64,000 bases of DNA from Xanthostigma xanthostigma. Its lineage: Eukaryota; Arthropoda; Insecta; Raphidioptera; Raphidiidae. Both the position numbers and the translations under genes were made by a program. Location: contig OY754467.1 in NCBI GenBank assembly GCA_963575645.1, positions 24,883,001 to 24,947,000 of the forward strand. The letters run 5' to 3'. The notes beneath the pieces are model-generated. The model did not search any database. It was not told where the DNA came from and saw only the letters and a program-made list of their open reading frames with translations. Every line of letters begins with the position of its first letter. The first letter of the stretch is position 1. This document shows, one piece after another, positions 5,413-61,647 of the stretch.

Positions 5413-5672
5413 TATCGGGCACTTGGACAAGAAGATGTTACGTTTTCAAATGTTGCAATGGTTTGTTAATATTTTTCAACTTCATCAGGCAATCTACCAA
5501 ATAACTACAATGTACAATATATTTAAAACAAATAAATAACATTCATGACACTATTTGCATTTGATTGTAATTATTTTGAAGATTGTCTGATGACGTTGAA
5601 AATTATCAACTAGGCGTTGTAAAATTTGAAAACGCAAAATCTACTTATTCAACTTGTTCAAGTACCCGATAT
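5413..5672. mobile_element. Palindromic element with hammerhead-like motifs in both arms
   Basis: The left arm starts ATCGGGCACTTGGACAAGAA and the right arm ends with its inverse near TTCAAGTACCCGAT. The arms are about 80-90 bp, imperfect, and separated by about 80 bp of AT-rich sequence. Each arm carries CTGATGA followed by a short stem of the GTTGA/TCAAC type: right arm from 5587 (+), left arm 5460-5489 (-), the latter ending in AAAC. The design matches the palindromes at 13044 and 45103, which are related to Penelope-like elements, so the same origin is inferred. Confidence 0.5.
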
Positions 5673-13043: not shown

Positions 13044-13110
13044 CAATAAATAAAATTATCGACCAATTTTTCAGACAATATATTAACAAACAATATAAAA
13101 TTAATACATT

Positions 13111-13142
13111 AACGTTTCGATCCGGATTTGGATCTTCTTCAG
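13111..13142 (-). other. Hammerhead-like motif, left arm
   Basis: On the minus strand the order is CTGAAGA, one extra base, stem GATCC with loop, GGATC, then GAAAC-GTT. CTGANGA and GAAA are the two conserved boxes of the hammerhead core. The extra base before stem II and the very short stem III depart from the classical form, so activity is uncertain. Confidence 0.35.
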
Positions 13143-13275
13143 AACGGATCTAAAAATATAAAAAAAAAAAAAAAAATAAAATAAAAAAATATATTTTTTT
13201 ATAATTTTTTTTATATTTTTTTATATTTTTTTATTTTATTATTTTTTTATATTTTTTTATATTTTAAGATCCGTT

Positions 13276-13307
13276 CTGAAGAAGATCCAAATCCGGATCG
13301 AAACGTT
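13276..13307 (+). other. Hammerhead-like motif, right arm
   Basis: Exact inverted counterpart of the motif at 13111-13142: CTGAAGA, a 5-bp stem II (GATCC/GGATC), GAAAC and GTT. The same caveats apply. Confidence 0.35.
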
Positions 13308-13395
13308 AATGTATTAATTTTATATTGTTTGTTAATATATTGTCTGAAAAATTGGTCGATAATTTTATTTATTGAAGAGTTCTAATCAGACGTTA

Positions 13396-16215: not shown

Positions 16216-16493
16216 CGGGATCCATCGGGAGAACAATAAAGACGACAAATGATAAACTTATATCTGCGAATTTAAATATACAGGAACTAACAGGAAATGA
16301 AACCGCTAAATTTTAAAACGCAACTGTAGTTGGCGATCAGGAAATATTAACTACTAATAATCTGAAGATGAGAAATATAATTTAAGAATTTTAAATTTGA
16401 TTATACAAGGTGTTAGAACCAATTAGAAGAATTCAAACGTTCATTGATCTGCTACCCAATCTGGAACACTGGCTAACAATGAAATATCTCTTT

Positions 16494-16787
16494 ATAATAT
16501 AATATAATAAAATAGTAAATAATAAAATATATAATGAAATATAATATAATAAAATATAATACAATACAATACAATACAATACAACACAACATAAGATAAT
16601 ATAATATAATATAATATAATATAATATAATATAATATAATATAATATAATATAATATAATATAATATAATATAATATAATATAATATAATATAATATAAT
16701 ATAATATAATATAATATAATATAATATAATATAATATAATATAATATAATATAACATAATATAATATAATAAAATATAATATAATAC
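16494..16787. repeat. AATAT pentanucleotide microsatellite
   Basis: Nearly 200 bp of pure ATAAT repeats, flanked by impure ATAAA and ACAAT variants. It sits inside the LINE endonuclease: the reading QTFIDLLPNLEHW lies just before it and SRSGTIIFLKNEL just after. The long frames that cross it (MLYYIILYY repeats) are translation artefacts. Confidence 0.9.
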
Positions 16788-16795
16788 CGGGTTTT

Positions 16796-17304
16796 TGTAT
16801 TAGTGATTTTTTCTCTCGAGTAAATAGTAGCAGGAGTGGCACTATCATATTTCTTAAAAATGAGTTAACCTGCAAACAAAAGGATTGTATCAAAGGTCTG
16901 TCAATAGAATCAATCTATGAATTTTCGGCAATTGAAAATATTCAGTTGAAAATAATTATTGTGGGTATGTATCGCACGCCTTACAGTACAAATTTTAAAG
17001 TTTTTATAGAGCAATTGACAAGTGTGCTAGAAATTTTAATTCATTCTAATAAAATAAATTTATTAGCGGTGACTTCAATGTCGATTTTAAATTGAATACA
17101 CCAGAGTCTAATAAAGAGTGTATTCTTCTGGCGTCCTACGGTGTCGACCTAACAGTGAAAGATTATACACGTACAAAAAATACATCAAAATTGTGCATTG
17201 ATAACGTGTGTACCAATTATGATGATTTTAATTCTCAGGTTTTACATTCTCTTATGTCCGACCACGAAGGTCAAATTGTTGGGGTAGATACCTATTACAG
17301 CTGA
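16796..17304 (+). pseudogene. LINE endonuclease (APE) domain
   Basis: The first frame reads SRSGTIIFLKNELT, then IIIVGMYRTPYS, which are typical inner strands of the apurinic-type endonuclease that nicks target DNA for non-LTR elements. After a one-base deletion near 17066 the next frame continues GDFNVDFKLN (the conserved GDFN catalytic box) and ends with LMSDHEGQIV (the S-D-H box holding the last catalytic Asp and His). Both key boxes survive but in different frames, so the domain is dead. The N-terminal part lies before the microsatellite at about 16405-16490. Confidence 0.8.
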
Positions 17305-44365: not shown

Positions 44366-45102
44366 TATTCCGAAATTCCTCACCGTTTTTGTCAAATATG
44401 TTTTTTTTTTCAATTACTCATAAAATTCTTATCAGATTGATTTTTTTGTAATAAATTATTTTCTTAGGTTAAAAAAACTGCGTCGATTTCCGCACACCGC
44501 ATCAAAATCGGTTCATTAGTAAAAAGTGTTTTTTTTTTTGAGCTCGAAGAGCTAAAAAATAAACTTTTTGCTATATTTTATATATTTTTGAGCATTTTTG
44601 AACTCAAAAATAGTGGGAAGTTTCAGAGATGGCCCGCAGGGTCCAACTTCCTTTCAAATTTTTAAATATTTATTCTGATTTGTAACGAATTTTTTATACT
44701 TACGAATTTTTAAATGTTTAGAATCATACAAGAAATTATTGTAAATGTCGTTTTTGACATAATGTCATTTCAAAATAAAAATATCAAATTAATTCATTAA
44801 TTTCGTATAAATCTGGAAGCTATAGTTTAGTAACGAATAGGAGTAATTTATTATTCGTAGGTAGAATTTACTATCACGTTATGCTAAAATATTGTTAAAT
44901 TAATGGATACAATAATTACAGTTAAAGAGCCAATAAACTTATTTTGAAAGGGATTTGATTAAAACTAAAACGTTGTAGAATTGTATTAAGAAAAAATCGG
45001 AGGTATTCACACAAAAATTAATAATTAAATTAAATTAAATAATTATATTAAAATATTTGTTTAATGTCTGATTATATTCTTCAATAAATAAAATATTCGA
45101 CT
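44366..45102. other. No gene seen; repeat traces
   Basis: Contains a GCGTCGATTTCCGCACACCGC block like that at 43240 and a GGAAGTTTCAGAGATGGCCC block of repeat character. No coding support. Confidence 0.4.
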
Positions 45103-45375
45103 CTTTTTGACAATATATTAAAAATTAATAGACCAATTGACGTTTCAATCAAGATTTGGTTATTCCTCAGAATAATACTATAACTATAAAAATATTTAAA
45201 AAAATGATAGGTTGTTATTTTTTCATAAAAAATGTTGATATTGAAAATTTAACCATAACATTTTTAATTTATTACAGACTAATTATACAATATTTTTTTT
45301 ATATTTTTTATTTTTAGTTCAAGTATTATTCTGAGGAAGAACCAAATACTGATCGAAACGTCGACTGATTTATTA
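45103..45375. mobile_element. Palindromic element related to 13044-13395
   Basis: Begins TCTTCAATAAATAAAATATTCG and has inverted GACGTTTC...TCCTCAGAATAATA / ATTATTCTGAGGA...GAAACGTCGAC arms. The arms are more diverged than at 13044. Each arm holds the CTGAGGA - stem - GAAAC(GTC) motif (45139-45170 on minus, 45331-45362 on plus). It lies just beyond a Penelope-like remnant. Confidence 0.55.
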
Positions 45376-45473
45376 ATAATTAATTTTTAATGATAGGTAT
45401 TTGGATAAAATTCCGTGGCTAAGGATCGAAAATGAAGCAATACTGCAATTTTTTTAAACTTGCATTTAATGCT

Positions 45474-45504
45474 GACGTTTCGATACGTTTTGTATCATCT
45501 TCAG
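45474..45504 (-). other. Hammerhead-like motif downstream of the Penelope ORF
   Basis: Minus-strand order: CTGAAGA, one base, GATAC-loop-GTATC as stem II, GAAAC, GTC. Both core boxes are intact. The extra base and short stem III differ from the textbook hammerhead, so it is a candidate only. Confidence 0.45.
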
Positions 45505-45844
45505 AGTTTTCTGTAATTATATTTTCTTTGTTATAAATTGTTTTAAATTGTTATTACGTGGATATTAATGTTAGAAACTTACCAAATGCTGTCACATGTC
45601 ATCAGTTTATTGTTGTTGAGGGATTGAGAACATGGTGTCACTCAACTTGCTAATTGTTATTGCTATTTTTTATATTTTTAATAGTAGATACTGGTTAATG
45701 TTAATATTTTAAAATTGTTAGTTTCTTTTAAATGTAAAATTATTGTAACAAATTTAAAACAAATGAAGTAACCTTTCTTATATTGTGCTGTGAATAAAAC
45801 TGAACTAATAGATATACGAAACGGACAACATTTGTTAAGTTTAA

Positions 45845-46125
45845 ACAAGATACATTTTACAAGGCTATTGATATTTTGTCAATTAATTAAGTTTTTAATA
45901 AATACCATTTCTAGAAAAATACGTTTGAAATTATTGGGTTCTTGGATTAAAATAGTGGAATTTTTTAAATAAAAATTATGTTTGTTGTCAAAACTATATT
46001 GTACTAATGATGTAAGATTAGAATTAGGACAGGCATATTTTTTGTTAAAATCATAATTACGTTGTTTTAAGCGGAGGGACAGAAATTGAGAAGTTTGACC
46101 TATATAATAGGTAGCATTATATAGT
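45845..46125 (-). pseudogene. Penelope GIY-YIG endonuclease
   Basis: Minus-strand reading: ATYYIGQTSQFLSLRLKQRN, then SLVQYSFDNKHNFYLKNSTI, ILIQEPNNFKRIFLEMVFIK and NLIN before a TGA at 45879. The (Y/G)-Y-(V/I)-G-Q-T start, the R-L-x-Q/H helix, the A/V-x-(H/Y)-x-F-D-x-x-H segment and the E-x-x-x-x-x-R-x-x-x-E-M-x-x-I-K segment are those of the endonuclease of Penelope-like elements. It would nick target DNA. The first part of the domain and the zinc-finger-like cysteines are lost at about 46127. Confidence 0.8.
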
Positions 46126-46127
46126 CA

Positions 46128-46896
46128 GAGTGCCCGTCGGCAAAAAATTCATTGATACATACTCTCCCCAAACTTTGTATATGGCTTCATTAGGCCTAGT
46201 CTGACACCTATTTCCTCTATGACTTTTCTTGATTTTGGGGCGTTTTCTCTCTAAAATTTCCGAAAGATGTCGTTTGTAAAAATTTAAAGATACGCACACA
46301 CGTTCATGGCTTATATGTGTGTAGTGTCTGTGAAGTTAAACAACTTTCGTAACTATGGCGAAAACAGGTGAAAAAAACTGAAGTTTTCCCAGGTAGATAA
46401 CAGCGCCATCTCGCGTGCACCAGAAAACGGTCCGTCTCGAAACACAGAAATTATAGAAAGGTAGGTCTCCTGAATACAGACTTCATGAATATAAGCAAGG
46501 GTACATAAGACAAAAACATCGAAACAAGATTATGTTGACTATAAACATTTTTAACAATAAATAATCAAAATTCGAATGTTGGCACAAATTCATAACATAA
46601 TTGTACTGATTGCTTACATTTTGAGTGTCTGTTCTCCAATTGATTGCAATGGTTTTTCCAATAAAACACATTCATATTGCGTTTCATCCAATTCGAATCT
46701 TTATCTAATATTATGACTTCATTGAATAAAAGTTTTGTTCAGTGTCGAAATGATAAGATGACAACGCCGCCTTATTTATCATTTAATAAAATTATATTTC
46801 AACAGTCCATTTTGTGCTAATATATTCTATTCTTTAATAACTGTTTTGTTTGTCCCACAGAGAACTGAGTACATTGACAGGGCATTTTATAAATAG
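46128..46896. other. No gene seen
   Basis: AT-rich sequence with short chance frames. The start (GTGCCCGTCGGCAAAA) marks the breakpoint of the Penelope-like remnant. Confidence 0.4.
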
Positions 46897-60215: not shown

Positions 60216-61647
60216 CCCTTTAACGACGAGGTCAAAACGCGTGGTCCGATTTAAAAACAAAGTTGATATTCGTGATCAGCGACCCAAAATTAGTCAAAAA
60301 TGATAAGCTGGGGTCTGACCTCCCCCCCACCCCACGGTGAAGGCCTGGCAAACATATTTGCCTTTCGGCGGAAACGGAAATGTTATGATTGAATAGAAAT
60401 GAAACAAAAAGAACGAAAACATTTTTTTATGTATTTTTTTCGCATAACTAATTCTGTTGCCAATGTTACTGACAATTATATTATATTGTAAGAAATGATT
60501 ACAGACAAATTTTAATGTTATTTTTGGCGATGGTAATATGCAAAGCAGTCAGGGGATGCGCTGAAGCCCAGAAATACATTGCACTGAATGCAAAATACGT
60601 TCGTGCGGCTTCCAGTTTTTTCGCTTCGCCATGTTGTGTGGATTTTTGGCTTTACTAGCTTGTATAGACAATCCAATTGAACGCCGGTGAACATTGGCTC
60701 GATATAATTATTTATTGTGCGAAAACGAAAAACAGGGTCATATTTTGGCAACTTCTATCTTGGTGGCTCTTCGGCCACTGGTACAGGAACACGGGGAGTT
60801 GGTTCAATCACGGGTGCAGTAAATGAAGTTGAAGAAGTCGGTTCGGTGACTGGAGAAGCAAATGACGTTGAAGGAATTGGATCGGCGACTGGTGCAGTCA
60901 ATTCTCGTTCTTTACGCTGTCGTTTCGGCGGCGGCGATTTGACACTCTTCCTCTTCGCACTTTCGATTATCACCTCGAGGTTCTCAGTTGCTAGTGACTC
61001 GGTCGCATCATTTTCCAAAAATGCATTGTCTTCATCGTCCAACTGCAGCACACTTTCTTCATCGTATTCGTCGCTTTCATCACATAAAAGAAACTGTTCT
61101 ATTTCATTCGGACTAACAAAAAACAAGCGATCACGGGCAGAACTGTGTGGATTATTCATCGTCAATTCACAAAATAAGAAAAACACAAAAAATCAGTAAC
61201 AATGAAATCAAATACGTTCAGTTCGCTGCTTGTTTGACTGTCAATACAATACTGAATAAGAAATGTAGAAATTTCCATTGCCGCCGAAAGGCAAATATGT
61301 TTGCCGCCAATACCTGACCTTTGACAGGACAGGTATGAAATCAAAGAAAATTTTACCTATGCACAATCGAAAGGTATGTACGTTATCTACAACATATATT
61401 AATGACAATTCGTTAGGTCCTTCCCCACACCCATAAATTTACTTTGATTAAAACTGACATTTTGGCCAAATTAGAGCGCAGGTAGCAAACAGGTAGCAAC
61501 CAGGTAGAAACCAAATGTATACATAATATTATAGCCCCAACATTATTCTACAACTTACTCTTAACAGATACACGCTATCTGTTACCTAAAAAATTTAAAA
61601 AAATAAAAACCTGTGGGCAAGCATACTTGCCTTTAGTCGTTAAAGGG
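60216..61647 (-). mobile_element. piggyBac deletion derivative, 1,432 bp
   Basis: The element begins CCCTTTAACGACGAGG and ends CTTTAGTCGTTAAAGGG, flanked by TTAA at 60212-60215 and 61648-61651, the piggyBac target. The opposite arm of the host foldback shows a single TTAA at the empty site. A 25-bp perfect subterminal inverted repeat lies at 60347-60371 and 61281-61305. The interior codes only for the ends of a transposase. Confidence 0.9.
60518..61159 (-). pseudogene. piggyBac transposase remnant (N-terminus joined to C-terminus)
   Basis: Starting at the ATG 61159 the frame reads MNNPHSSARDRLFFVSPNEI and EQFLLCDESDEYDEESVLQL (the acidic N-terminal region usual in piggyBac proteins), then a basic PPPKRQRKER and repeated (S/T)-x-x-PV-x-EP-T segments, to a TAG at 60755. 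The same frame continues with LPKYDPVFRFRTINNY, like the (Y/F)DP..K(I/V)RP segment near the start of the catalytic domain, and then directly FCIQCNVFLGFSASPDCFAYYH, the C-terminal cysteine motif. The DDE core is therefore deleted. Without the TAG, both ends would form one frame. The opposite-strand frame at 60717-61199 is its shadow. Confidence 0.8.

Follow-up and report, generated by a model that had tools for sequence, protein, structure and literature searches.

A Penelope-like element relic with a minimal hammerhead motif and an adjoining intron in Xanthostigma xanthostigma

The window analysed here is a stretch of 64,000 nucleotides from Xanthostigma xanthostigma (contig OY754467.1, positions 24,883,001 to 24,947,000). 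Its minus strand carries a copy of a Penelope-like element (PLE) with the following features, given in window positions with the basis of each assignment in brackets.

45387..46119, minus strand: 5'-truncated PLE copy (BLAST against fetched copies)
45879..46124, minus strand: GIY-YIG endonuclease remnant, from the YIG half onward, with an early stop after NLIN (frame and alignment)
45583..45589, minus strand: end of exon 1, GCATTTG, complementary to the hammerhead 3' arm and the putative 5' strand of distal stem I (pairing analysis)
45511..45582, minus strand: 72-nt intron GTAAGT...TTACAG in the pseudo-LTR (sequence; exact absence in L057(-) and L014(-))
45505..45510, minus strand: exon 2 leader AAAACT, 5' strand of core-proximal stem I (sequence, model R1)
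45474..45504, minus strand: hammerhead core, CTGAAGA, an extra T (45497), stem II GATAC/GTATC, GAAAC and GTC (sequence, model R1)
45462..45473, minus strand: 3' arm of stem I, AGCATTAAATGC (pairing analysis)
45117..45384, no strand assigned: short palindromic element abutting the PLE copy, with two outward hammerhead-like motifs (inverted repeat I6, model R1)

In BLAST comparisons with the fetched copies, most alignments (17 of 22) have their 3' end at 45386-45388, and the two relatives that reach furthest upstream begin matching at 46119; the PLE copy in the window is therefore truncated at its 5' end and about 730 bp long. The frame at 45879-46124 (-), which runs from LYNATYYIGQTSQF to EPNNFKRIFLEMVFIKNLIN and contains YYIGQTSQF, has no GIY half and its stop comes early. 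Alone, the fragment scores with no GIY-YIG family in Pfam. A sequence-only reading had called it a Penelope-like GIY-YIG frame, and this is borne out by 80% identity to one other genomic copy and 41-57% identity to four further PLE endonucleases. The residues YIGQT, R, E and further columns are common to six aligned endonuclease stretches. The window element is a dead, decayed, 5'-truncated PLE copy, a relic.

Relatives of the element are widespread in the 623-Mb assembly. A 221-bp query around the motif was found in at least 52 places including the window, a lower bound given that 40 of 946 candidates were scored, and the endonuclease frame in at least 150 places (150 of 1070 candidates scored). 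Some endonuclease matches sit in open frames of 823-888 aa within tandem arrays. Among the 150 matches listed and within 10 kb, there were 12 adjacent same-strand pairs with a spacing of 3042-3256 bp, 28 divergent pairs and no convergent pair. The relatives show the tandem or partial tandem copies with pseudo-LTRs by which PLEs are recognized. The combination of RVT_1 and GIY-YIG in one ORF, likewise diagnostic, was found by Pfam in two of the seven relatives' ORFs scanned and is a property of these relatives, not of the window copy. Both domains exceed the Pfam cut-offs in L054 and lie slightly below them in L039; at E<=0.1, RVT_1 only was seen in L040 and L053 and GIY-YIG only in L041, L042 and L045. 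By alignment, the endonuclease is common to L039, L040, L042 and L054. A PDB sequence search with the L040 ORF gave no match at E<=1. PLE head-to-head inverted repeats with arms 96-100% identical occur at L040-L042, L048-L052, L055, L056 and L058, loci partly picked because they were paired, and several of these pairs have no spacer. Arm identity in the palindromes at L043 and L046 is 83% and 94%, respectively. Head-to-head PLE copies with palindromic junctions are already known in kind from Adineta (PMC3846280, cited here, like the other PMC sources, from parts of the text).

The hammerhead core at 45504-45474 (-) reads CTGAAGA-T-GATAC-AAAAC-GTATC-GAAAC-GTC (CTGAAGATGATACAAAACGTATCGAAACGTC) and lies 375 bp downstream of the endonuclease. 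It agrees with the hammerhead consensus CUGANGA ... GAAA ... NUH (CTGAAGA, GAAAC, GTC), and cleavage is predicted between 45474 and 45473 (-). Stem III is absent, GTC following directly after GAAAC, and only an intermolecular ACGU duplex is possible. Stem II does not begin directly after A9 in the window copy, one extra base standing between them. In the window copy, two clean pairs make up core-proximal stem I; in the other subfamily it takes the form ACT/AGT. The pattern CTGANGAN{5,30}GAAAC has five matches in the window against 0.30 expected, and 0 of 100 shuffles reached five. As far as sequence can tell, the motif is confirmed as a PLE hammerhead with predicted cleavage. The sequence-only reading had stated that hammerhead ribozymes are described from PLEs, and this is indeed on record, the lack of stem III being usual (PMC7761336).

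That reading had also called for a search with a hammerhead covariance model, which gave a match with one model and none with those of Rfam. Rfam gave no match at gathering score anywhere in the window and no hammerhead at E<=10 in 44800-46400. It was equally silent at E<=10 on all 14 control stretches behind other PLE endonucleases, each of which carries the core, and the Rfam negative on the window is therefore uninformative; the Rfam hammerhead models miss the stem-III-less PLE class in this genome. The covariance model R1, built from 11 sequences with the window family excluded and its relative D included, matched the window copy at 45469-45509 (-) with 37.3 bits and E 3.3e-8. At E<=0.01, R1 matched 59 of 60 PLE loci, which had been fetched by endonuclease or with PLEs in mind and count overlapping loci and R1's own members. 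The sole locus without a match, L010, is short, and its larger version L044 has one. The order expected at the outset, GIY-YIG followed by the hammerhead, holds in the window and is repeated in 14 of 14 further stretches, one of them (L061) without GTY after the core. That a GIY-YIG-like frame and a hammerhead-like string stand together by mere chance would agree with the silence of Pfam on the fragment and of Rfam on the hammerhead; it is refuted by the 14 of 14 order and the 59 of 60 R1 matches and is extremely improbable.

The members of R1 had been preselected on the core, one extra base and stem II, so that only stem I provides a clean test. In the 11 sequences, 90.9% of stem I cells pair, compared with 9-50% in slid versions. 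Compensatory cells, changed on both sides, number 19 against 7.3+-1.8 expected (0 of 500 shuffles), and the covariation score is 1.11 against 0.25 in shuffles (0 of 500) and 0.00-0.21 in slid versions. Across families there are 3-4 covarying pairs. Kinship among the members (A, A2, A3; E, E2) can inflate cell counts of this sort. An earlier count over both stems, 44 cells against 15.6, has been superseded as inflated because selection had required a 4-pair stem II and one extra base. A search without stem II or spacing filter gave 37 distinct core variants in the fetched loci and the window. In 22 of these a helix of at least 4 bp begins one base after A9, 14 have no helix, and the one remaining helix-forming variant (1 of 23), L032, whose helix starts elsewhere, is a copy with an inserted base. 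The extra base before stem II, thought in the sequence-only reading to be a notable variant, is present as described; as a single local oddity it is ruled out, being the rule in 22 of 23 helix-forming variants.

Further variation was seen among the families. In families C and H, U3-A8 takes the place of C3-G8. Such cores were observed at L039 (-), L052, L031 (+) and L020 (+), including a tandem array of 823-aa ORFs. Their novelty was rejected, as this natural covariation has already been reported, with no difference in kind from families C and H (PMC3088659, in part). In family D, C replaces the conserved U4, with one identical variant in 19 loci, and by its sequence this hammerhead is probably inactive. 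Members of family D are L042 and many of L012-L031, and the copies look young. A general role as start codon was rejected for the ATG within the hammerhead, which is absent in B, C and L. Viral contigs were scanned by pattern as well, and among the 120 stretches listed a stem II of at least 4 bp was present in 7 of 75 stricter matches; around three of these seven no PLE was seen, and the ORFs looked phage-like.

The earlier reading overlooked an intron directly ahead of the hammerhead of the window copy. Introns of 70-143 nt, with a GT donor and an AG acceptor, are present in 10 of 15 families (W, the window family, and D, B, C, A, A2, E, E2, K and L), and the acceptor lies 3-13 nt upstream of C3 in all ten. 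No complete intron is visible in F, I, J, H and M, which were left out of the ten-family pairing tests. In F, I and J, most copies have AG before the core and the donor is absent from the flank; these copies are short, and truncation inside the intron may be the cause. Family H has neither donor nor acceptor, and M has the donor with no acceptor AG. Precise intronless copies are L057(-) and L014(-) of family W and L043(+) of family A, and they are read, by their sequence, as copies of spliced RNA. A splice census of W, D, A and part of A2, with B, C, E and K outside the count, gave 13, 11 and 11 copies with the intron in W, D and A and 1, 0 and 1 without it. L014, too near the locus end for the scripted census, is an additional W copy without it, and the remaining rows either were matches of other families or contained no exon 1 that could be recognised. 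The spliced retrocopies span the cleavage site; therefore some spliced RNA stayed uncut, and any cutting that may take place would, on the evidence of the intronless copies, be incomplete.

In five of seven groups, which were set by the author's judgement without a tree, exon 1 ends in sequence complementary to the 3' arm of the hammerhead; two groups fail. In W the pairing is GCATTT/AAATGC; in D it is GCATT/AATGC plus AATACTGAA/TTCAGTATT; in B, TATTAT/ATAATA together with a longer distal helix; in C, a slightly interrupted helix of more than 20 pairs; in A, TTGC/GCGA, TTG/CAA and TTTACCA/TGGTAAA; and in L, GTTTTCAGA/TTTGAAAAC. Families E, E2 and K have no pairing of exon 1 with the arm. With a 30-nt flank, the expected stem I pairs in spliced and unspliced form are 14.7 and 0.1 in W, 18.0 and 6.2 in D, 24.3 and 8.9 in B, 25.3 and 1.5 in C, 19.1 and 4.1 in A, 17.6 and 5.3 in A2, 19.0 and 0.0 in L, 3.1 and 22.3 in E, 0.9 and 3.2 in E2, and 0.4 and 6.0 in K. 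Family H, as it stands, has 12.4 expected stem I pairs, and the joined form of M has no stem I in its best fold. When 45 nt of exon 1 are included, the stem is lost from the best fold in both the window copy and L (4.2 and 2.9 expected pairs).

Exchange of exon 1 among the ten families, which include related ones, gave 14.66 pairs for a family's own exon against 7.04 for the others (p 0.0003). By duplex energy with 30/40-nt flanks, the own exon reached -11.64 and exchanged exons -7.29 kcal/mol (p 2e-5), and longer flanks gave p 2e-4 (45/60 nt) and 0.003 (45/75). With one member per group, exact p was 0.0008-0.0083 (30/40 nt), 0.0018-0.026 (45/60) and 0.008-0.45 (20/30). Shuffling of exon 1 gave a Fisher combined p of 0.0009 with L and 0.0015 without it; the supporting families singly gave 0.0025-0.095, and 0.0045-0.20 with longer flanks. 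Earlier versions of the tests gave p 0.009-0.026 for exchange and Fisher values of 0.00018-0.0067 (shuffles) and 0.0011-0.0052 (junction scans). All these tests are post hoc. Because the idea came from the same data and the donor of L was chosen for its pairing, the pairing of the exon 1 end with the 3' arm, by which splicing would join a long stem I, is treated as suggestive.

Relatives that are more complete carry the hammerhead at the beginning of exon 2, after the endonuclease of one unit and before the ORF of the following one. Tandem transcripts would contain one hammerhead per pseudo-LTR, and cleavage between units would yield unit-length RNAs. The cleavage could take place as a dimer through the self-complementary ACGU or be helped by the element's protein. 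Core-proximal stem I lies in exon 2; in most families the remainder of stem I would lie in exon 1, and splicing would unite the two parts. The whole is probably best explained as a dead PLE copy with a minimal type I hammerhead, cleavage of tandem transcripts and a stem I joined by splicing. The position of the intron suggests that splicing changes ribozyme activity. A stronger form, offered tentatively and with doubt prevailing, is that of a hammerhead split by a spliceosomal intron, in which exons 1 and 2 would share the 5' strand of stem I and splicing would assemble the full ribozyme, so that unspliced RNA would be spared as transposition template and spliced RNA cut.

An ordinary minimal PLE hammerhead with a short stem I, acting as a dimer, is a possible though rather unlikely alternative, in which the nearby intron end and the exon 1 complementarity would be due to chance or composition. 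PLE hammerheads have been described, in the part of PMC7761336 cited, as minimal type I motifs that possibly self-cleave as dimers. The first stem I pair is kept unspliced in families A and A2 (P 0.97 and 0.94), which favours this alternative, as does the lack of exon 1-arm pairing in E, E2 and K. The acceptor 3-13 nt ahead of the core in all ten complete-intron families speaks against it, and the better pairing of a family's own exon 1 at 30-45 nt argues against chance complementarity.

Another view, also held at low probability, is that the exon 1-arm hairpin is real and has a different role, such as template recognition by the protein or the approach of the splice sites, with the intron bulged out and the ribozyme not gated. 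The distal stem is in fact also predicted in unspliced RNA, with 10.0 expected pairs in W (majority form), 15.5 in D, 12.7 in B, 24.5 in C and 11.3 in A. In the Anolis element, a stem-loop close to the beginning of the ORF is where reverse transcription is initiated, and mutating the ribozyme leaves insertion unaffected (PMC11167929, in part). Against such a role stand the collinearity of the hairpin with the covarying stem I and a predicted drop of 4.2-7.6 kcal/mol in the cost of the hammerhead fold when W, B and C are spliced. These costs are secondary-structure estimates, with tertiary contacts outside them. Keeping the intron raises them by 4.3 (W majority), 4.2 (W), 4.2 (B), 7.6 (C), 3.9 (K), 1.3 (L) and 0.6 (E2) kcal/mol, leaves them unchanged in A and A2, and lowers them by 0.3 (D) and 0.8 (E) kcal/mol; splicing brings no easing of the predicted fold in A, A2, D and E.

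PLE hammerheads other than that of Anolis reportedly have weak activity in vitro. If the split-ribozyme reading is true, it would explain both why PLE hammerheads are weakly active when genomic sequence is assayed and why PLE copies keep their introns, a puzzle in itself. Cervera and De la Pena (2014) and Lunse, Weinberg and Breaker (2017) are said to have treated PLE hammerhead motifs. The published PLE hammerheads are alike in being minimal type I motifs without stem III in the pseudo-LTR; unlike here, no adjacent intron is described for them in the part of PMC7761336 cited, which calls their in vivo role a mystery. Introns in the pseudo-LTRs of PLEs are known (PMC11722881, in part). The Poseidon element PAc of Anolis carolinensis likewise has a single ORF with RT and GIY-YIG, tandem repeats and a hammerhead at the pLTR-ORF junction, and its ribozyme cleaves only with the element's protein and is dispensable for insertion in vitro (PMC11167929). 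A PAc start codon at the beginning of stem II would agree with the CTGANG-ATG arrangement seen in several of the present families; in contrast to PAc, the ATG is not conserved (B, C and L are without it), and the part of PMC11167929 cited mentions no intron for PAc. The Penelope families of Adineta vaga share pLTRs, head-to-head inverted copies, palindromic junctions and retained introns, and self-priming has been proposed for them; the sections of PMC3846280 cited leave open how PLEs keep introns, and the word ribozyme is absent from that paper. A literature search on partial texts, with the primary PLE hammerhead papers and the 2003 PLE intron paper outside its scope, found no statement of an intron abutting or splitting a PLE hammerhead. 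The adjacency and interlocking of hammerhead and intron, each known by itself, appears new on these partial sources, which fall short of proving it so. Should the ribozyme be interrupted by the intron, the activity of spliced versus unspliced RNA bears on both the role of the hammerhead and the retention of the intron, and a genome scan can miss a ribozyme part that sits in another exon.

Three short inverted-repeat elements with two outward hammerhead-like motifs each were also observed in the window, at 13106-13312, 5423-5652 and 45117-45384. The last, which abuts the PLE copy, is probably PLE-derived; its motifs are weak in R1 (45134-45175 (-), 18.4 bits, E 0.013; 45326-45367 (+), 16.0 bits, E 0.067) and have no clean stem II. 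Further R1 matches are at 13106-13147 (-), 13271-13312 (+), 5452-5493 (-) and 5582-5623 (+), with E from 1.8e-7 to 0.003. The element at 5423-5652 resembles family L, with 73-74% over 94-141 columns. Elsewhere, 60755-61192 (-) holds a 145-aa open frame that looks like the N-terminal part of a piggyBac-like transposase, and 16433-16914 (-) holds long tyrosine/isoleucine/leucine repeat frames, apparently a simple DNA repeat.
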